From contig DTTI01000037.1 of assembly GCA_012964825.1 (NCBI GenBank), positions 1-64,000 of the forward strand: a stretch of 64,000 nucleotides of DNA, written 5' to 3'. The notes under the pieces were generated by a model, which saw only the letters and a list, made by a program, of their open reading frames with translations, was not told where the DNA came from and searched no databases. How positions within the stretch are numbered: the first letter of the stretch is position 1; the number at the start of each line of letters is the position of its first letter. This stretch comes from Candidatus Neomarinimicrobiota bacterium (GTDB taxonomy: Bacteria; Fidelibacterota; Marinisomatia; Marinisomatales; S15-B10). Made by a program: the position numbers and the translations under genes. Positions 830 to 62,860 of the stretch are shown here, in pieces.

Positions 830-862
830 TTTTCTCGATCAAATAACCTTAAAAAACAGGGA

Positions 863-1639
863 CTAATAACCCCCTGGCATGGCCGGCGGTTCTGGTAGCG
901 GCTCCGGCCCCAAACCGAGAACGTCATCCAGCATGCCGGAGTCATAAGCATAAAAACCACCCCCACCTACTGCTGCCAGAAGGATGATCCATAAAAGACC
1001 TTTGCTGCGCTTCTTGGGGGCACCGGCGACCTCTGCCACAGGCTGGGCAGCCACTACTGGTTGGTCCATTCCGGGGAAGCGCCCCGGAGGCGGGGTGATA
1101 CCGATGAGCTGCCAGGAAATTATTTCAATCTCAGTAATAAGGCCGTCAATAGCTCCGCTATATGTGCGGTTAACTGACCTGACGATTGCACCATCCTCAA
1201 CAGCGAACATTCTCACATCAATGGTATAACTGGCACCGATCTTACCGATGGAGCCGGTGGCCATCTGGGAGACACCGAGAAGTTTTCCCACCTCTACAGC
1301 GCATTCCGACGAGACACACCCTGTCTGCTGGAATCCCTGCTCACTCAGGATTTCCGTCATCTGGCCCCTTTCTACGATGGTGACAGCACCGGTAGACACC
1401 AGCTCAGAACGCATCCTGTCCGTCAGCGTCTGGGCTTCCAGGGAGGAGATTCCGCGCCCCTCCAGGTCGATAATAGCGATGACCAGTTTACCAGAACCCT
1501 GGGCGTTCTGCTGGATCAGCTGGCCGTCTACCTGCGCTTCGCGAACATTCTGCTGTGCAACCGCCGGCACAGGAAGTGAAAAAACGAGCATCGTCCAACT
1601 CAGGATGACAGATATGGGTTTCATCCACGGTTTAATCAT
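863..1639 (-). CDS. CsgG/FlgO-like envelope protein with C-terminal membrane segment
   Basis: This 258-residue protein starts at ATG 1639, preceded by AGGAGA. It has a signal peptide (residues 1-28, ending AVAQ). The region at about 49-180 has the fold pattern of CsgG/FlgO/LpoB-type proteins: a KLVIAIIDLEGRG strand, then TDRMRSELVS, VTIVERGQM, and GKLLGVSQMATGSIGKIG. That family holds outer-membrane secretion-pore and peptidoglycan-synthase-activator proteins. Unusually, after this domain there is a Pro/Ala-rich linker, a basic stop (KKRSK), one transmembrane helix (about 213-232) and a Pro-rich tail. It lies downstream of FlgT-like and LPP20-like genes, so a shared envelope complex is inferred. 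The exact subfamily (CsgG, FlgO or DUF2380-like) cannot be decided by eye. Confidence 0.7.
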   Translation of the reverse strand: MIKPWMKPISVILSWTMLVFSLPVPAVAQQNVREAQVDGQLIQQNAQGSGKLVIAIIDLEGRGISSLEAQTLTDRMRSELVSTGAVTIVERGQMTEILSEQGFQQTGCVSSECAVEVGKLLGVSQMATGSIGKIGASYTIDVRMFAVEDGAIVRSVNRTYSGAIDGLITEIEIISWQLIGITPPPGRFPGMDQPVVAAQPVAEVAGAPKKRSKGLLWIILLAAVGGGGFYAYDSGMLDDVLGLGPEPLPEPPAMPGGY

Positions 1640-1693
1640 GATTCTCTCCTAATGTAAGGTAACGTTAACCAATAGTGTGTGAGCGGGGACACA

Positions 1694-1745
1694 CGGGAAA
1701 AATGTGATCCATCTATAATTCCGCATTTTGTGACCCACATTCCCG
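1694..1745. repeat. Imperfect inverted repeat between TlpA-like and CsgG/FlgO-like genes
   Basis: The arms CGGGAAAAATGTG (1694-1706) and CACATTCCCG (1736-1745) pair with a two-base bulge across a ~29-base spacer. It sits in the 139-base gap upstream of the CsgG/FlgO-like gene. It could be an attenuator, an RNA processing site or an operator. No T-run follows on the minus strand, so a classical intrinsic terminator is unlikely. Confidence 0.35.
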
Positions 1746-1778
1746 CATATAGCCCAGTTCAAAGAGAAGACTGTGAAA

Positions 1779-2399
1779 TCAGTCAGATTTCTTTTCGCCG
1801 GGATCCTTCAGCAGTTCATCAATGATTGCTGACAGTTCTCCTTCAAAATCTTCCCCTTCGTGGAAACCGCGCTTGATGAGTTTTATTGTGCGGTACTTGT
1901 CCAGCACGAACAGGCGTGGAAGCATCTTGTCTGGCACATACCTTTCCATGGCCATGCCGTAGGTGTCCAGCAAAAGTGGCATGGTGAGACCCCGCTCCTT
2001 CAGAAACGGTGCCGGCTCCGGTGCGTCGGCGTACTGTGGTACGGATCGGGTAGCGTCCGTGATGTCCACAAGAAAGATGCGGACCTCCCGCTCCTGATAC
2101 TTCTGCCACAGATTCTCCAGATGGGGCAGCTCTTTCATACAAGGTTGGCACCAAGTGGCGAAAAAGCTCACCAGCACCACGTGACGGACTGGCTGAGATG
2201 CAGGGCGGGAAAGCCTTTCACCGGTCCATCGGGTCAGCAGTTCATATTTTCCGTCAAGGGTACGGAGGGCAAACTTGGGTGCCTCATCACCGATCTGCAG
2301 CCCGACGATTTCAGGCTTTGCCGCTTCTTTGTCCTTTTGAGCAATAATGTAAACAGGCGTTATCACCAGCATGATAGTGATAATTGTTTTTCGTAACAT
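1779..2399 (-). CDS. TlpA-like periplasmic thioredoxin
   Basis: This exported thioredoxin-fold protein of the TlpA/redoxin family starts at ATG 2399, which is preceded by GGGGAA at good spacing; an alternative ATG at 2441 overlaps the LPP20 gene. A signal sequence (MLRKTIITIMLV...) is followed by the family entry motif IGDEAPKFALRTLDGK. The redox site is WCQPC in FFATWCQPCMKELPHL. The downstream helix and cis-Pro strand region (MLPRLFVLDK) are present. Such proteins reduce or isomerise disulfides in the periplasm. It lies within a run of envelope-protein genes, so these may be its clients, although the neighbours show few cysteines: the CsgG/FlgO-like protein has a C-V-S-S-E-C pair that is a plausible substrate. 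Confidence 0.85.
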   Translation of the reverse strand: MLRKTIITIMLVITPVYIIAQKDKEAAKPEIVGLQIGDEAPKFALRTLDGKYELLTRWTGERLSRPASQPVRHVVLVSFFATWCQPCMKELPHLENLWQKYQEREVRIFLVDITDATRSVPQYADAPEPAPFLKERGLTMPLLLDTYGMAMERYVPDKMLPRLFVLDKYRTIKLIKRGFHEGEDFEGELSAIIDELLKDPGEKKSD

Positions 2400-2437
2400 A
2401 GGTATATTCCCCAATTGTCTAGTTTTTTTCAAATTCA

Positions 2438-3322
2438 TCAATCGATAAGGATCATCACTTTGCAGTTGGACAGGAATTGACCGGAACTGTCGGCACTCTT
2501 CACACGGGATACATCACCAGCCGCCAAAACAAGGTCCGCCTTATTGGCACCCTGTACACTAACGCCTTTCACCACCAGCGGGTTACCCACTACACGAGGG
2601 TCCTGCTGGGCCTGTTCCAAATTCTTAGAGTAACCGGCTACGCCGAACTTCACGGCGAACTCCCGGGTAAAGTTCCCGGGTCCATAAACCACACCACCGT
2701 TCTGATCGAGAACCTTTGGTGACATGGCTGGCCTGAGTCCCAGACCCCTGGCATCTATAATAAGGCCTGTCACCGTTCCCGGCCGCGGTGCGGCGGGAGC
2801 GGCGGGTGCAGGTGCTCCTCCTGCTGTTGGCGCCGGGGCAGGGGCAAACCCTGCCGATGGTAAAATAACTTCAGAAATGCCCGACATATGGACTTCCATC
2901 TCGATCTCAATGGAGGTGTCACTGAGGTAGCGGATATCGCTGTTGCTGCCACGTCCATCTCCATCAATGTCCCGCATGCGGGCACCCCTCACCATCCCTT
3001 CAACTGATGTTTTCACAACATCATTTTCGATGGCAGCGCCCCGTACCGTTGTCTCCGAAGAAACAGTAATGGCCATGACCGCTTCCAAAAGATTGCGCAT
3101 GGCGTCCACTTTTGCCGCCCGGATAGCCGTAGCGCGGGCCATTCCCGGGTTCTGAGCCAAAGGTGAAATGGCACCGATCCCCGTGGCCACCACAAATCCG
3201 TTGGAGTAGTTCATAGCACCGTTAGCAACCTGCTGAACTGCATCATTGGCACCCCAGCCCCAACCCTGCCCTTGCACGGAAGTAAAAAGAATAAAAGATA
3301 AAAGTGTTAAAGTGCGTTTCAT
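2438..3322 (-). CDS. LPP20/FlgP-family exported protein
   Basis: 294 residues, starting 11 bases after the FlgT-like gene stops. It has an N-terminal signal peptide (cleavage near VQGQG) but no lipobox cysteine. The central part (about 45-150) shows the LPP20 pattern: a Gly-Ala strand, ARATAIRAAKVDAMRNLLEAV, then ITVSSETTVRG and a long stretch ending in a beta strand. LPP20 proteins include the Vibrio flagellar outer-membrane lipoprotein FlgP. A Pro/Ala-rich linker (about 158-182) leads to a C-terminal domain (LIIDARGLGLRPAMSPKVLD...) that also occurs in envelope proteins of this type. The missing lipid anchor differs from FlgP. It overlaps the alternative start of the TlpA-like gene. Function outside flagella is unknown. 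Confidence 0.7.
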   Translation of the reverse strand: MKRTLTLLSFILFTSVQGQGWGWGANDAVQQVANGAMNYSNGFVVATGIGAISPLAQNPGMARATAIRAAKVDAMRNLLEAVMAITVSSETTVRGAAIENDVVKTSVEGMVRGARMRDIDGDGRGSNSDIRYLSDTSIEIEMEVHMSGISEVILPSAGFAPAPAPTAGGAPAPAAPAAPRPGTVTGLIIDARGLGLRPAMSPKVLDQNGGVVYGPGNFTREFAVKFGVAGYSKNLEQAQQDPRVVGNPLVVKGVSVQGANKADLVLAAGDVSRVKSADSSGQFLSNCKVMILID

Positions 3323-3333
3323 TATGCCCCCCG

Positions 3334-4458
3334 TTATTGAGCAATTTGTGCTGAAATTCGGTTGCCGGAAAGCCCTGTAACCTGAAGTGCCGCACCCTGG
3401 GCCTGATTTTGCATAAGTGCCATGGCCAGGTCCTGGGATTTCCCCTCATAAAGAATCTGGAATTCTGCCACACCTCCGTTGAACCCCTTCTCAAAGGCGT
3501 TCTGAATGCCGGGAATGGTCTGAGACTTCAGGTGGTTACCCAGCGCCATGTAAGTCATGAAATCGACATTTTGAACTACGAGAAAAACATTGACAGCATT
3601 GGCCTGCTGGGTACTCCATTTCTTGATGAGCTGGGTGATAATATCACTTCCCAGTTTCTTCGCCGCCATATTCACGGCGCTGATACCGGCAGTGGTTGCT
3701 GAAATGTGGGGTTTCTTTCCCCGGGCCTGGGGCACAATGGCCAGAATTTCGCCTGTGTCCGCCCGGATAATCTTGCCGTTCACATCCGCCTGCCCTGAAG
3801 TCATAGTATAGTTCCCAGCCTTGATTTCTCCTCCGGATGAGATCTTGGCTGTACCAATGACGATAATGTCAGCCCCCAACATTCCCGCTATCTTTGCGGC
3901 GGCTGTAACATCTCCGGCCAGAGCCTGCGTGAAGTCGGCTTCGCCTTTCATGGCCTGTACCAGTTGGCGGTCCACAACATCAAATCCTTTGTCATAAAAC
4001 ATTTTGATCAGCTGAGTTTCTGCAAAATCGGTGGGGGTGTTATCGATAAGATTCTCCTCTCTCACCATGAAGATTATCTTCGGACGGTTCATGGCGTTCA
4101 GCAGCGTCTGCACCGCCATCTCATCCTTGAGCACCTCATCGAGGATCTCCGTCACCACCGCTTCAATGGTTATGGTCCAGAGGCCGTCGGGGTCCTGAAA
4201 CTTGTCCTTCACGGTATAGGTTTTTACAAAACCGTTTGCCTTGGCGTAAATGTTGTCTGAAAAGAGAACGGAATTCTTCACCACCGTCTCAGAGGACATA
4301 ACGGTACCGATACCGATCTCAACGGCGGAGCGTTTCGCCTGCTCGATGGCGGCATCTTCCGTCATGCCGAAACCCTCGGCAGTGATAGATGATACCTGAG
4401 CTACCAGCGAAACAGCCAGCAGACAGAGAATGACATGAATTCTAACGGCGGCTCTCAT
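3334..4458 (-). CDS. FlgT/CsgG-like exported envelope protein
   Basis: I prefer the ATG at 4458 (AAGGGG about eight bases upstream, followed directly by a signal peptide ending in VAQ) over the ATG at 4488. The N-terminal domain resembles FlgT-N: AEGFGMTEDAAIEQAKRSAV, then SSETVVKNSVLFSDNIYAKA, NGFVKTYTV, and an I-E-A-V-V strand. The middle domain (from about NRPKIIFMVREE) has a CsgG-like layout with ALAGDVTAAAKIAGMLGADII and IGTAKIS. In Vibrio, FlgT forms the H ring around the flagellar basal body. No flagellar gene is seen in this window. It is the first gene of the minus-strand operon that continues with the LPP20-like, TlpA-like and CsgG/FlgO-like genes. Confidence 0.7.
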   Translation of the reverse strand: MRAAVRIHVILCLLAVSLVAQVSSITAEGFGMTEDAAIEQAKRSAVEIGIGTVMSSETVVKNSVLFSDNIYAKANGFVKTYTVKDKFQDPDGLWTITIEAVVTEILDEVLKDEMAVQTLLNAMNRPKIIFMVREENLIDNTPTDFAETQLIKMFYDKGFDVVDRQLVQAMKGEADFTQALAGDVTAAAKIAGMLGADIIVIGTAKISSGGEIKAGNYTMTSGQADVNGKIIRADTGEILAIVPQARGKKPHISATTAGISAVNMAAKKLGSDIITQLIKKWSTQQANAVNVFLVVQNVDFMTYMALGNHLKSQTIPGIQNAFEKGFNGGVAEFQILYEGKSQDLAMALMQNQAQGAALQVTGLSGNRISAQIAQ

Positions 4459-4671
4459 TAAATACCCCTTTCCTTGTCTAAAGATCATAGGTCAAAATAA
4501 ATATATTCAACTTACTACTCATTATCAATCATTATCGCCTGATGTTGCACAGCTAAACTAAACAAAAAAGGTAAAATAAAAATGTGATACAGGTCAATAA
4601 CATGAGTAAAGATGTTTTATTTGCGCCGGAAGGCGGTTATATTTTTATTATACCTTATGGAGAGTGTAACG
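4459..4671. promoter_or_regulatory. Divergent intergenic promoter region
   Basis: About 210 AT-rich bases separate the FlgT-like gene (minus) and the TPR-SLH lipoprotein gene (plus). Both transcripts must start here. Several AT-rich boxes occur (for example TAAAAT at 4572), but no well-spaced sigma-70-like pair could be fixed. Confidence 0.45.
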
Positions 4672-5808
4672 ATGAAAAAATTGACTGCCGCCGCTATTAT
4701 TGTTCCGACGCTTCTTATTATTACAGGGTGTGGCCCCAAAGCGACATCCCAGTCGGATGTGGATACGCCCGAATACCACTACAGGGCAGGGATGCGCTAC
4801 CTTGAGAATGAAGATTACCAATCGGCCATCCGGTCATTCCAGCGCTCAGTGGACCTGGATAAAAAGTTCGCACTGGGGTGGGGCGGCCTCGGCCTTTCCT
4901 ACGGACTCATTGGTGATCTTAAAACAGGCCGCAAACATATGGACACAGCTCTTGGCCGGGGGAAAAAGAATCCCGACGTCCGAGTACTGTCTGGCCGGCT
5001 CTGGATTGCCCACAAGGACGATAACAAACGGTGGCTGAAGCGGGCCGTTGACGAATTCAATACTGCCCTCAAGCTGAAAAAAGGGCACGAGCCCGCCATC
5101 TTCTGGAAAGGGATGGCCTACATGCAGAACTACGATTTTTCTCTGGCCGAAGCCGAATTCAGGACACTTGTGGAACGGAAAGGAGAATACGCCGGTAGGG
5201 CCGATGATATGTGGGCACTTTCACAAAAGATAGTCCGGGCCCAGCCTGGTACCACCGCCGGCAAGAGGATCGCCTTGAAACCGAAGATCAGCCGGGCTGA
5301 TATGACCGTCCTCTTTATTGAAGAGCTAAAACTGACTGAACTATTTGACCGCTTTATGCCCCAGTCCACCGGCGGCGGTTTTCAGACTCCGGCACAAATG
5401 ATGTCACAAGGCAGCACACTGCTGCCGGGCGATGTACGTGGGAGCTGGGCCGAAGGGTGGATCGAAGAGGCCATGAAGCTGGGTGTGGTAGAGACCGATC
5501 CTGATGGGAATTTTTACCCTGCTGAGGCAGTTACGCGAGCCGGCTATGCTCGTGCCGTTGCCAAGATCTTAACCATGGTGACACGGGACCAGACCCTGGA
5601 GACCAGATATTTTGGAGAAAATCCCTCCCGGTTCTCGGACGTTTCCAGCTCTCATTTTGCTTATCCTGCCATGGCCCTTTGTACGGAGCGTGGTATCATG
5701 AAAGCCGATCTGGTCACAGGCGGGTTTAATCCGGTTGGGAGCGTGGGTGGCGCTGACGCACTGCTTATCATCCGTTCTGTGCAGAATTCCCTGAGAGTAA
5801 CATTCTAA
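4672..5808 (+). CDS. TPR and SLH-domain lipoprotein
   Basis: The start at ATG 4672 is chosen because GGAGAG lies about nine bases upstream and it opens directly on a lipoprotein signal (MKKLTAAAI..., lipobox ITGC). Upstream ATG/TTG codons would put extra sequence before it. Residues about 35-180 hold three to four TPR units (for example YHYRAGMRYLENEDYQSAIRSF). The C-terminal part (about 250-370) has two S-layer-homology-like segments: GSWAEGWIEEAMKLGVV...FYPAEAVTRAGYARAVAKIL and FSDVSSSHFAYPAMALCTERGIM. SLH domains bind secondary cell-wall polymers or peptidoglycan, so this could link the outer membrane to the wall. It is divergent from the FlgT/LPP20 operon, which suggests a shared envelope role. 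A terminator follows. Confidence 0.8.
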   Translation: MKKLTAAAIIVPTLLIITGCGPKATSQSDVDTPEYHYRAGMRYLENEDYQSAIRSFQRSVDLDKKFALGWGGLGLSYGLIGDLKTGRKHMDTALGRGKKNPDVRVLSGRLWIAHKDDNKRWLKRAVDEFNTALKLKKGHEPAIFWKGMAYMQNYDFSLAEAEFRTLVERKGEYAGRADDMWALSQKIVRAQPGTTAGKRIALKPKISRADMTVLFIEELKLTELFDRFMPQSTGGGFQTPAQMMSQGSTLLPGDVRGSWAEGWIEEAMKLGVVETDPDGNFYPAEAVTRAGYARAVAKILTMVTRDQTLETRYFGENPSRFSDVSSSHFAYPAMALCTERGIMKADLVTGGFNPVGSVGGADALLIIRSVQNSLRVTF

Positions 5809-5831: not shown

Positions 5832-5857
5832 AAAAACCCCGCCGGGCGGGGTTTTTT
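5832..5857 (+). terminator. Rho-independent terminator after TPR-SLH gene
   Basis: A perfect GC-rich hairpin (AAAACCCCGCC, one-base loop, GGCGGGGTTTT) ends in TTTTTT, about 25 bases past the stop codon. Confidence 0.9.
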
Positions 5858-13103: not shown

Positions 13104-13176
13104 ATTTCCCCCATATTCAATCGAAATTTAGCCAAGGTTGGAAAAGCGCCATGCCAAAAGTACTTTTGCACTCCTC

Positions 13177-14038
13177 ATGAAGCGCGTAGGTCTTGACATA
13201 GGCGGTACTAAGATTGAGTGTGCTGTTCTCGATGGTGATGGTCATGTTCTGGCTCGGGAGCGCGTCCCCACCGAGCGTGATAACGGTTACAAACACATTC
13301 TCGGTCAAATCTCCAAACTATACAAAAAGCTGAGCGATCAACTAAGCGATGAATTCCTGTTCGGCGTCTGTGTACCGGGCCCTCTCACCGCGGAAGGAGA
13401 CAGGTTGAAGCACGGCAATACTCAAGCGTTGGTGGGCGAACCGCTGAAAGATGATATTGAATCAATTTTCGGCGCCACACCTGTACTGGACAACGACGCT
13501 AACTGCTTCGCTCAGGCCGAGGCTTCACTGGGAGCTGGTAAGGGTTCTAAAGTTGTTTTTGGCGTCATCCTGGGAACAGGCGTGGGGGGGGGGCATTTCC
13601 ATCGATGGCCGTGCTTACCACGGAAGACAGTATATCGCTGGCGAATGGGGACACTCCCTCCTCTATCCTGGCGGGCAACCGTGCTATTGTGGAAAGTCGG
13701 GGTGCGTAGAACAGTACCTCTCCGGCCCGGCGCTGGAAAAACGCTACCTCGAAATGACAGGTGAAACAGCACTCGTTACAGATATTGCGAAAAATCCACC
13801 CAATGAGTGGAAAGAAGAATTCCTAGACAATTTCGGCATGGCTATCTCAAACATCATTAACATCCTCGATCCCCATATTATCGTTCTGGGCGGTGGTGTC
13901 TCTAAAGTCAACTTTCTTTACACCGAAGGGCCCGATTACGTCCGTCGCTACTGCTTCGACGACAATATCACCACCCCCATTGTGAAAAATACCATGGGTG
14001 ATTCGGCTGGTGTCTTTGGGGCGGCCTATCTGCCCTGA
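13177..14038 (+). pseudogene. ROK-family sugar kinase, frameshifted at a G10 tract
   Basis: The first part (ATG 13177 to about 13593) has the ROK N-terminus: VGLDIGGTKIECAVLD (phosphate 1), FGVCVPGP, VLDNDANCFAQAE (catalytic Asp) and VILGTGVGGG. At 13584-13593 there are ten consecutive Gs; with nine, the reading would continue GVGGGISIDGRAYHG. The continuation is found in the next frame to the stop at 14036-14038 and carries the ROK zinc-binding motif CYCGKSGCVEQYLSG and VLGGGVSK. Together the two parts make about 286 residues, the normal length of glucokinase or fructokinase-like ROK enzymes. The break may be a sequencing error, a real mutation or phase variation. The rest of the sequence is not degraded. 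Confidence 0.88.
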
Positions 14039-47272: not shown

Positions 47273-49561
47273 TCACGCACGGTTCGATGATCGCTTCATG
47301 CTCGGTATCGGTGTCTCACTATCCGCCAGTACAGCCAACTGTTCTACAGTCACCGGCGTGTGACCCCAATCGTTCTCTACCTGTCCTTCAATAATGTACG
47401 GCCCCCGACTTCTGATGAGGTGACCAAACTTACGGTATGCCCCAGGAAAAAGTACCGCTTCGTACGTCGCTGTTAAATCTTCGCAGGAGAGAAACTGCAT
47501 TATCTCTCCCGGCTTTGTTTTTGTCCGGCGGGTGGTGAGCATCCAACCCACCAGCTTAACTTTTTTGCCCACATATTGAGTCAATTCCTGGCTGTGAATC
47601 AATCTACCCACTTTCTTGACATGTTGTTGAAGAGCTCTTTTCCAGATCCAGAGCGGATGCTTTTCCACTGTCAGTTCCATCAGTTCCAGTTCGTCTCTCA
47701 ACTTTTGCTCCAAAGGATAATCCACCCACGGGATTTTGGAAGATGTCTTCACCACACTGGGGAACATCCCATCACAGCTCGCTTTCAGTTTATGATAGAA
47801 CAGCTTCAACCGCCACAAATGCTGGGGGCGGGTGTAGCCCAGTGAATCAAAGGCACCGCACCGGATGAGTGTTTCCACTTCCCGGTAGGTCGGTTTTACG
47901 CGGACACAAAAATCTTCCAGCGATTCGAAGGGTCGTTCTGTCCGTTTTTCCAGTAGCACAATGAGGGTCTGCCGGGTAAGTCCCTTAATTTGCAAAAGAC
48001 CGATACGGAGCCACGGTACGTTGTCATTTGCCGTAAAGTGAAGTTTCGATTCATTCACATCCGGCGGGAGGATGGTAACCCCGAGCCGACGGGCTTCTTC
48101 CAGGTAGCACGATGTATGGTAAAAGCCACCGTAGTTGGACATGACCGCCGCCAAGAATTCCGCCGGAAAGTGAGCCTTGAGCCACGCTGACTGGACGGAA
48201 ATAACCGAATAGGCGGCGGAGTGTGCTTTACAGAAAGCGTAGCCGGAAAAAGCTTCCATCTGCCGCCAGACCTCCAAAGCCGCCTCCACATGCACTCCCC
48301 GTTTCACCGCGTCCCGGATAAAACGATCCCGGTGCTCCATGAATGGCTCATCCACTCGCTTCCCGCTCATGGACCGCCGCAGCCTGTCTGATTCCGCCAG
48401 ACTCCATCCTGCAATAGCCTCGGCAATCTTGATCACATCCTCCTGGTAGAGCATGACACCGTAAGTGTCTTTCAGCAGTTCCGTGAGAGAGGCGTGTACT
48501 GCCTCCACTTTTTCTTTACCATGGTGTCGTTTGACGAAATGTCTCAACATCCCTGAATCGGCGGGCCCGGGACGAATCACCGAACTGGCGGCGGTGATCA
48601 TTTCAAAAGAGTCCGCTTTCAGTTTTTTCAACAGTCCCCGCATCCCTGGTGATTCGATCTGAAACACGCCCATGGTGCGGCCCTCCTGGACGAACACTTT
48701 TGTTCTTTCATCCATCTCTAGCACGGTATGGCGATTGAAGTTCACGTTATATTTTTCTTTCAAGGTGTCGGCCATTTCCGCCACCACCGTGAGGGACCGC
48801 TGCCCCAACAGATCAATCTTCACCAACCCCGTTTTTTCAATCCCATACATATCAAACTGGGTTACCACCGGACCTTTTGTAGATCGCTGGAGTGGTACAT
48901 AGTTGGTAATCTTTTCAGGTGATATGACAATGCCACCACAGTGGATCCCCATATGCCGCGGTCGTCCCTTCAGTTTTTGCGCCAGCTCAAATATTCCTCT
49001 GTACTTGTCATCCTCTATCATTTGTTTGCCGGCTCCCTTTTCATAGCGCCGCGGCAGCTCACGGGGCATTTGGTTGATCTCTCTTTCCGACAACCCCATA
49101 GCCCGCGCCACATCTCGCACTGCTCCCCTGAGTCGGTAAGTGTTGAATGTAGAAATCATAGCCACTCGATCTCTCCCGTACTGCTCATAGACATATTCCA
49201 GCACTTCGTCCCGGCGCTTCCAGCAGAGATCCACATCGATATCTGGCGGTTCCTCCCGGTCAGGGTTGAGAAACCGCTCAAAGATGAGATTGTGTTCTAT
49301 GGGATCAACCGGAGTGATGTTCAAGAGATATGACACTAAACTTCCTGCCGCCGAACCACGCCCTACCGTAGGAATGCCCTGCCTGTTTGCCCACTGAACA
49401 ATATCCCAAACAATAAGGAAGTAATCGGCGTAGCCCATATCGATGATGATGTCCAGTTCATAGGTCAGTCGCTTCAGTATCCTTGTTGTGATAGGGTCAT
49501 ACTTCTCCGGCAGCGCCTTGTGGCAAATGTTTACCAGATGATCAGCTGAACTTCGATTCAT
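47273..49561 (-). CDS. dnaE2: Polymerase core of error-prone DNA polymerase III alpha, PHP domain missing
   Basis: 762 residues that start exactly where the PHP domain of DnaE ends: SSADHLVNICHKALPEKYDP, then the linker ELDIIIDMGYADYFLIVWDIV. The catalytic triad is intact: Asp107 and Asp109 in PDIDVD, and Asp250 in VKIDLLG; VGRGSAAGS is also present. Fingers, thumb and OB regions continue to the end. GYAFCKAHSAAYSVIS, SNYGGFYHTSCYLEEARR and the overall length (plus 257 residues of PHP) match the DnaE2/ImuC error-prone type. No RBS is seen. A stop (TAA) lies four codons upstream, so no larger N-terminus is encoded here. The missing PHP domain is found ~12.5 kb away at 62.1-62.8 kb. The role is probably translesion synthesis. 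A β-clamp motif was not found. Confidence 0.9.
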   Translation of the reverse strand: MNRSSADHLVNICHKALPEKYDPITTRILKRLTYELDIIIDMGYADYFLIVWDIVQWANRQGIPTVGRGSAAGSLVSYLLNITPVDPIEHNLIFERFLNPDREEPPDIDVDLCWKRRDEVLEYVYEQYGRDRVAMISTFNTYRLRGAVRDVARAMGLSEREINQMPRELPRRYEKGAGKQMIEDDKYRGIFELAQKLKGRPRHMGIHCGGIVISPEKITNYVPLQRSTKGPVVTQFDMYGIEKTGLVKIDLLGQRSLTVVAEMADTLKEKYNVNFNRHTVLEMDERTKVFVQEGRTMGVFQIESPGMRGLLKKLKADSFEMITAASSVIRPGPADSGMLRHFVKRHHGKEKVEAVHASLTELLKDTYGVMLYQEDVIKIAEAIAGWSLAESDRLRRSMSGKRVDEPFMEHRDRFIRDAVKRGVHVEAALEVWRQMEAFSGYAFCKAHSAAYSVISVQSAWLKAHFPAEFLAAVMSNYGGFYHTSCYLEEARRLGVTILPPDVNESKLHFTANDNVPWLRIGLLQIKGLTRQTLIVLLEKRTERPFESLEDFCVRVKPTYREVETLIRCGAFDSLGYTRPQHLWRLKLFYHKLKASCDGMFPSVVKTSSKIPWVDYPLEQKLRDELELMELTVEKHPLWIWKRALQQHVKKVGRLIHSQELTQYVGKKVKLVGWMLTTRRTKTKPGEIMQFLSCEDLTATYEAVLFPGAYRKFGHLIRSRGPYIIEGQVENDWGHTPVTVEQLAVLADSETPIPSMKRSSNRA

Positions 49562-62065: not shown

Positions 62066-62836
62066 TTAAGTGCCACGGTGAATATATCTTGGAAGATGAA
62101 GTGTAGTAAAATCAAACCGAAAGGTGCAAAGTCGCGCCACATCGCCGGAGGAGAGGACAGTCTGGAAAGGAAGGAGCGGCTCCTCCATCAGTTGTCCGAA
62201 TAGTTTGGCAGAAGGGGCTTTAGGAATAGTCTCTTCAGTCGGCAAGGACGCCACCGTGCAGTTACGGCTGATAGCTCGGAGAACTTTGTACAGGGCTATA
62301 TCTTCACCTGAAAAAAGATTCAGCTCTATTACCGGCACTGCCGAAAGGGAGGGAGCCAGATCGGGCCGGCGGGATACCAAAGTGAGCAGTGATCTACACC
62401 GGGAGCTGTCCGATACAACCGGTATTGCATAAAGACCTCCTGTTTCTCCTCGACGTACCCACCGTTGAAGTAATACCGGATCGGCACAGAAATGAAGGAG
62501 ATCATCACCGCCGGGAACCACAATTTCCGTTAGTGGTGGTTCATGGAGCTGGAGCTGTGTGATGATTTCAGATAGTCGCACATATCCATCTCTGTTTCGG
62601 GCAATAACCGTAACGTTTCGTTTCCCATCCGTCAGTTCAGCACCAATAAGGGGTGTAATATTTGCTTTGCCGCATGCAGTTGCAAATTCAATTGCACCGT
62701 AGAGACCGTTCTCATCCGCTAAACAGAGCTGACGCAAACCGTGATCGGAAGCGAACGTCACAAGATCAGGAACGGAATGGACTCCCTTTAGAAAGGAGTA
62801 GTGACTCTTACAGATGACGAGAGGTGAATGACGCAC
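62066..62836 (-). CDS. Detached PHP domain of DnaE2-type DNA polymerase
   Basis: The start at GTG 62836 is favoured because the PHP domain follows at once; TTG 62860 is an alternative. The 257-residue protein aligns with the N-terminal PHP domain of DnaE2/ImuC: SHYSFLKGVHSVPDLVTFASDHGLRQL, ADENGLYGAIEFATACGKA, PLIGAELT, and the end LPRYIHRGT, equal to the L-P-x-F-P segment that closes the domain. The metal ligands are lost: the H-x-H positions are I and K (VICKSHYS) and the Asp-His of T-D-H is D-E. So the domain is probably a structural one without exonuclease activity. The polymerase part lies at 47.3-49.6 kb. It is followed on the minus strand by the Lrp gene. Confidence 0.85.
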   Translation of the reverse strand: MRHSPLVICKSHYSFLKGVHSVPDLVTFASDHGLRQLCLADENGLYGAIEFATACGKANITPLIGAELTDGKRNVTVIARNRDGYVRLSEIITQLQLHEPPLTEIVVPGGDDLLHFCADPVLLQRWVRRGETGGLYAIPVVSDSSRCRSLLTLVSRRPDLAPSLSAVPVIELNLFSGEDIALYKVLRAISRNCTVASLPTEETIPKAPSAKLFGQLMEEPLLPFQTVLSSGDVARLCTFRFDFTTLHLPRYIHRGT

Positions 62837-62855
62837 AAATAGCGTATAAATAGCG
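62837..62855. promoter_or_regulatory. Direct repeat AAATAGCG x2, 11 bases apart
   Basis: AAATAGCG occurs at 62837-62844 and 62848-62855, one helical turn apart, just upstream of the predicted GTG start of the PHP gene. The second copy is followed by CAC. It could be an operator for the dinB-ssb-PHP group. Protein unknown. Confidence 0.4.
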
Positions 62856-62860
62856 CACAA

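Follow-up and report, generated by a model that had tools for sequence, protein, structure and literature searches.

A conserved non-flagellar gene module in Marinimicrobia encodes relatives of flagellar ring proteins and is a candidate envelope scaffold

The 64-kb stretch of Marinimicrobia DNA analyzed here (positions 1 to 64,000 of contig DTTI01000037.1, assembly GCA_012964825.1; hereafter, the window) carries near its start four genes that encode, in this order, a FlgT/LipL46-like exported protein, an LPP20/FlgP-type protein, a TlpA/ResA-type thiol-disulfide oxidoreductase, and a CsgG/LpoB-like exported protein. Together with an adjacent gene for a TPR-SLH lipoprotein, they form a conserved module that, on well-supported grounds, is not flagellar. 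We tentatively interpret this module, at somewhat less than even confidence, as a wall-anchored scaffold that ring-forming proteins would build beneath the outer membrane. Flagellar ring proteins are usually treated as motor accessories, and the module offers a setting in which to study their function where a motor is missing. Our literature search, limited to open-licence papers, found no paper that joins FlgT or LPP20 with Marinimicrobia.

Gene order and distribution of the module

A first-pass annotation, made from the window sequence alone, had described FlgT-, LPP20-, TlpA- and CsgG-type genes on one strand, and all four open reading frames (ORFs) are indeed present on the minus strand (3334–4488, 2438–3322, 1779–2441, and 863–1639). 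Alignment with relatives points to 4458 as the likely start of the FlgT-like gene (3334–4458; the ORF opens at 4488, and residue numbers of this protein are those of the 384-amino-acid ORF) and to 2399 as that of the TlpA gene (1779–2399; the ORF opens with TTG at 2441). The FlgT-like, LPP20-like, and TlpA genes are spaced by 11–38 bases, and the TlpA gene is followed after 139 bases by the CsgG-like gene, for which a separate promoter is possible. The amino-acid identity of the module genes to those of the next genus is 80–87%, and the ratio of nonsynonymous to synonymous polymorphism (pN/pS) is 0.10–0.18, that is, the genes are under purifying selection. In addition, the gene order is kept in every relative examined, and the genes are therefore real.

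Among 20 wider loci of relatives, the FlgT-LPP20-TlpA succession is intact in all, the CsgG-like gene comes next in 17, and the TPR-SLH gene invariably adjoins the FlgT-like gene (divergent in 18 loci, on the same strand in two). A different arrangement is found in the sister family f18 (f12, f18, and f22 are family labels within our Marinimicrobia survey), where the order is FlgT, TPR-SLH, LPP20, FecR, and CHASE2/guanylate cyclase, all in one operon at five complete loci. Conservation of the order across the families of the host's taxonomic order, along with this other arrangement, rules out chance adjacency of unrelated genes. The joining of the TPR-SLH gene to the FlgT-like and LPP20-like genes in two arrangements is the strongest sign that the products work together, and agrees with the earlier proposal that this lipoprotein belongs with the module. 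As a separate observation, the joining of the module to FecR and a CHASE2/guanylate-cyclase protein in f18 (L045:8907–15475 and four other loci) suggests a signalling link.

Neither the first-pass annotation nor our own inspection of the window revealed a flagellar gene, and profile searches of the host genome (2.2 Mb, 97.6% complete) for FlhA and FliF, on which our statement on the absence of flagellar genes is based, returned no match. We then turn to 175 Marinimicrobia genomes, each at least 80% complete, of which 54 encode a FlgT-like protein: 43 in the host's order, 9 in f18, and 2 in f22. FlhA scores over the cut-off in 36 of the 175 genomes, including 6 of the 43 carriers in the host's order (in the other 37, it does not), all 9 carriers in f18, and 1 of the 2 in f22; the FlgT-like gene is absent from 20 of these 36 FlhA-positive genomes. 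The association between the two genes is weak (16/54 vs 20/121, Fisher P 0.07), a comparison that is descriptive only, given that the genomes are related. Four flagellar clusters of flagellated Marinimicrobia (L081–L084, 19 kb each) contain no homologue of the module.

In three f18 genomes (G130, G131, and G132), the FlgT-like gene lies on the same contig as flhA, at a distance of 36–42 kb. Flagellar linkage in f18 is ruled out, however, because the neighbours are ribosomal and translation genes (by eye, rpsI, rpsB, tsf, pyrH, and frr) and the flagellar clusters lack a homologue. A flagellar role of the module is unlikely because FlhA is detected in so few of the carriers in the host's order, the flagellar clusters are devoid of module homologues, and purifying selection acts on the genes. 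These lines of evidence, with the absence of FlhA and FliF from the host genome, bear out the non-flagellar nature proposed in the first-pass annotation.

The LPP20-like family is found in 63 genomes. In f12, about a dozen and a half of these genomes have a diverged LPP20-like gene at a site that is flanked by some of the neighbours of the full module; in most of them, the FlgT-like gene is missing.

Domain composition of the module proteins

The FlgT-like protein consists of a signal peptide, an FlgP/FlgT_N-type domain with a putative hairpin insert (residues ~34–113), a CsgG/TolB_N/FlgO-like middle domain (~137–261), and a C-terminal alpha/beta domain (~298–383), and lacks a lipobox. The window protein matches none of the Pfam families FlgT_N, FlgT_M, and FlgT_C; among 42 FlgT-like relatives, FlgT_N is matched weakly by 8 (best E 0.0017), and FlgT_M and FlgT_C by none. 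A phylum-wide FlgT_N search yielded no match, neither for the module nor for its controls, and thus carries no weight as to absence. Weak matches to FlgO and CsgG are more frequent in the set of 42 (25 and 15 relatives, respectively). The FlgO profile weakly matches the FlgT-like middle domain (0.0027). The nearest curated family is Leptospira LipL46 (NCBIfam NF033164), matched by 40 of the 42 relatives (best E 5.6e-16); the match on the window protein is nearly full length, at 29.2 bits vs the equivalog cut-off of 400. LipL46 is an outer-membrane lipoprotein that is partly surface-exposed (PMC2698987), whereas the FlgT-like protein, far under that cut-off, is not a lipoprotein.

The AlphaFold2 model of the FlgT-like protein (mean predicted local distance difference test score, pLDDT, 78.7) retrieves from the PDB with Foldseek, as top matches, the Vibrio LPHT ring (8z5n_0, E 9.5e-8) and FlgT (3w1e, E 2.8e-7), followed by CsgG. 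Over the whole chain, the template modelling (TM) score to FlgT is ~0.3 and the root-mean-square deviation is 13–17. The hairpin of the model (E63-71 and E74-83) has low pLDDT. Like Vibrio FlgT (3w1e; LPHT ring 8z5n), the protein is exported and non-lipidated, and its N-terminal domain of FlgP type precedes a middle domain that resembles TolB_N and CsgG. Unlike FlgT, it stays under every FlgT Pfam threshold, is not matched by FlgT_C, possesses a middle domain that is nearer to the FlgO and CsgG models, and is encoded in a genome in which no flagellar core gene was found (FlhA and FliF searched). The fold of the middle domain is also seen in CsgG, PelC, TolB, and other envelope proteins; profile comparison of this domain with the CsgG-like protein of the module gave no significant match. 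The FlgT family name is not supported for this gene. The homology to FlgT and LPP20 claimed by the first-pass annotation holds for LPP20 at the profile level, as detailed below; for FlgT, the top fold matches (8z5n_0, 3w1e) point to it, and the Pfam profiles do not. A second FlgT-like paralogue is present in three genomes (G020–G022; L048:5831–9832, L047, and L049), within a different four-gene set whose other members have no significant Pfam match.

The LPP20-like protein (2438–3322, minus strand) has a signal peptide and, as noted earlier from the sequence, no lipobox, Cys287 being its sole conserved cysteine. The LPP20 profile scores 20.9 bits on the window protein vs the cut-off of 25.9, and is matched by 30 of 35 LPP20-like relatives (best E 9.9e-7), the f18 member exceeding the cut-off at 26.1. 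With a profile of the LPP20-like family, the first domain matches FlgP structures (9hmf, 1.6e-9; 8z5n_2, 8.6e-7), the alignment running nearly gap-free across the stretch that bears the hairpin insert, and the second domain matches domain 2 of Treponema pallidum Tp0624 (5jir, E 1.9e-8). The structural model of the LPP20-like protein (pLDDT 67.7) also matches Tp0624, with domains 1 and 2 in tandem (Foldseek E 4.4e-8, 289 columns, probability 1.00). The protein is, then, a member of the LPP20 family in which an FlgP-type domain is fused to a domain similar to Tp0624 domain 2. In contrast to Tp0624, there is no OmpA-like domain 3, the chain ending after the second domain; the separate SLH protein may supply the wall-binding role in Marinimicrobia. 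Pairs of domains 1 and 2 without domain 3 have been reported in nearly 50 bacterial sequences (PMC5104382). Compared with the FlgP/LPP20 family (8z5n, 9hmf, 9yec), the domain aligns also across the stretch that in FlgP bears the ring insert, whereas the lack of a lipobox, the approximately twofold length due to the second domain, and the non-flagellar location are differences. FlgP derives from a broad family, and in the FlgP family ring formation correlates with an insert after the helix (PMC12222027). The FlgP-type domains of the two window proteins, FlgT-like and LPP20-like, are homologous to each other (hhalign E 1.1e-10).

LPP20-type proteins also occur in a second conserved Marinimicrobia cluster (L085:3411–9224, L086:1125–7005, L087:5576–11251, and partly L091), in genomes with or without FlhA. 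This cluster comprises, in order, genes for a protein of 570–630 amino acids, a DUF6175-like protein (~423 amino acids), and three consecutive LPP20-type proteins (~450, 190, and 260 amino acids).

The CsgG/LpoB-like protein (863–1639, minus strand) passes the Pfam cut-offs of both LpoB, its best match (35.9 vs 22.3), and CsgG (27.1 vs 20.8). The only other Pfam match is DUF3280, and the FlgO profile does not match, so that the FlgO-type label given to this gene by the first-pass annotation is not supported. Membership in the CsgG/LpoB superfamily notwithstanding, the NCBIfam LpoB equivalog cut-off is not reached (30 vs 110.55 bits), the CsgG match covers profile positions 38–98 of 210, the signal peptide comes without a lipobox cysteine, and the beta-barrel-forming segments of CsgG were not found. 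The protein further differs from the superfamily in having a CxxxxC pair (C108/C113) and an added C-terminal, Gly-rich hydrophobic helix (residues 214–232, hydropathy 1.64). This helix, proposed earlier as a membrane helix, is present in 6 of 6 aligned members.

TlpA contains a WCQPC motif, and conserved cysteines are found in several of the associated proteins. All 22 sequences of the CsgG-like protein have C108 and C113, all 43 of the LPP20-like protein have C287, and 40 of 43 of the TPR-SLH protein have the non-lipobox C357, some sequences in these counts sharing a genome. The FlgT-like protein has no conserved cysteine. Judging from the sequences, the proteins with conserved cysteines are plausible clients of TlpA.

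The TPR-SLH lipoprotein is encoded on the plus strand, divergently from the module (4672–5808, with 4672 the likely start of an ORF that opens at 4612), and has the lipobox ITGC. SLH modules are wall-binding domains, and the protein is probably a link between outer membrane and cell wall. In one genome (G018; L052:6166–7251), the divergent partner of the TPR-SLH gene encodes a protein of 361 amino acids with the N-terminal FlgT-like domain only, and the full FlgT-LPP20 pair is on another contig.

An envelope scaffold and alternative readings

Under the scaffold interpretation, the FlgT-like and LPP20-like proteins would polymerise under the outer membrane, using their FlgP-type domains in the manner of FlgP and FlgT in flagellar rings. 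The outer-membrane anchor, which the LPP20-like protein no longer has, would come in trans from the TPR-SLH lipoprotein, whose SLH part would hold the cell wall. The CsgG/LpoB-like protein could form a further ring or a regulatory layer held by the C-terminal helix, and TlpA would keep the redox state of C108/C113 in the CsgG-like protein and of C287 in the LPP20-like protein. The likely job of such a module would be tethering or organising the outer membrane and peptidoglycan. We regard this as the best-supported account because the LPP20-like profile aligns nearly gap-free across the insert stretch of FlgP, the FlgT-like model has a low-confidence hairpin there, the proteins carry export signals, the lipobox is lost, and a lipidated SLH protein is a constant neighbour. 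Assembly of the scaffold, and with it the envelope-spanning structure suggested by the first-pass annotation, is a plausible prediction.

Several observations weigh against this account. In both structural models, confidence is lowest at the hairpin, with pLDDT below 50 for residues 64–83 of the FlgT-like protein and 86–105 of the LPP20-like protein, and the low whole-chain TM score to FlgT suggests that the domain arrangement is different or flexible. In the CsgG-like protein, the KKRSK motif that precedes the C-terminal helix is ill-suited to a simple inner-membrane anchor. The f18 operons lack TlpA and include FecR and the CHASE2-cyclase instead, so that neither the redox part nor the CsgG part is universal, and the occurrence in f12 of a diverged LPP20-like gene without the others means that parts of the module are separable.

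The presence of an LpoB relative next to wall-binding SLH modules would also fit control of peptidoglycan synthesis, whereby the CsgG/LpoB-like protein and the SLH lipoprotein regulate a peptidoglycan synthase from the outer membrane and the FlgT- and LPP20-like proteins are accessory spacers. LpoB is the best Pfam match, but the equivalog cut-off is far off, the fold common to CsgG, PelC, TolB, and others (seen here for the FlgT-like middle domain) leaves the function unspecified, and the CsgG-like gene is absent from 3 of the 20 loci; we consider this reading unlikely. The continuation of the f18 operon into FecR and CHASE2/guanylate cyclase at five complete loci argues for a role in envelope sensing, in which the module would serve a stress or surface sensor as its periplasmic or outer-membrane part and would, in some lineages, be coupled to these proteins. 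Within the window's own order, however, the operon contains no sensor or cyclase gene, and such a role appears rather improbable.

The consistent matches of the FlgT-like relatives to LipL46, a partly surface-exposed protein, raise the prospect that these are surface lipoproteins or adhesins that form no structural assembly. This is very unlikely, given the missing lipobox, the score of 29 bits against a cut-off of 400, and the tight linkage to a thioredoxin and a wall-binding lipoprotein, which suggests a periplasmic function. Least probable, in our assessment, is a relic of a flagellar ring set retained after loss of the flagellum: some relatives are still flagellated, and in f18 FlhA and the module occur together, but there the module sits beside ribosomal and translation genes, outside the flagellar cluster. 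In addition, the FlgT-like gene is missing from 20 of the 36 FlhA-positive genomes, and purifying selection persists.

A conserved FlgT/LPP20 pair without the flagellar core allows one to ask whether motors borrowed such proteins. Taken to its full extent, the scaffold interpretation would have flagellum-free bacteria build a stand-alone, SLH-anchored ring or lattice of FlgT/FlgP type under the outer membrane, with the flagellar H-, T-, and basal-disk rings as later borrowings from an older envelope scaffold, a proposition that we put forward as doubtful. LipL46, Tp0624 domains 1 and 2, and TPR-SLH lipoproteins, all of them poorly understood, meet here in one neighbourhood of a little-studied marine phylum.

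Module borders and other features of the window

The first-pass annotation had also included in the assembly the RCC1 propeller encoded next to the CsgG-like gene, starting at 829 and cut by the contig end. A terminator-like stem-loop with a six-T run (857–876, minus strand) lies between the two genes, exactly at the CsgG-like stop codon, and the RCC1 gene is therefore probably a separate unit. This stem, together with the different exported proteins found at the same site in relatives, rules out RCC1 as a module member. The terminator scan yielded 12 terminator-like sites vs 5.9 expected by shuffling, the 857–876 site falling at a gene end; another intrinsic-terminator-like hairpin (5832–5856, plus strand) is downstream of the TPR-SLH gene. 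Between the divergent transcription units, the intergenic region (4459–4671) holds a promoter-like match on the minus strand (4528–4500) that, as a scan, is not above chance.

In relatives, the site after the CsgG-like gene is usually occupied by large exported proteins of varied make-up (by eye, right-handed beta-helix, repeat, and Ig-like types). Loci with such a changing protein are L004–L006, L058, L060, L061, L065, and L067–L071, the RCC1 protein being the one in the window. The host genome contains 24 matches to Por_Secre_tail (type IX secretion), of which 20 are over the cut-off.

Elsewhere in the window, a DnaE-type polymerase III alpha subunit is seemingly split into a PHP-domain ORF (62066–62860) and the remainder (47273–49561), which lie on one strand with 12.5 kb between them. 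By eye, a ROK-type sugar kinase (13138–14038) seems to be spread over two overlapping frames, owing to a frameshift or an assembly error.

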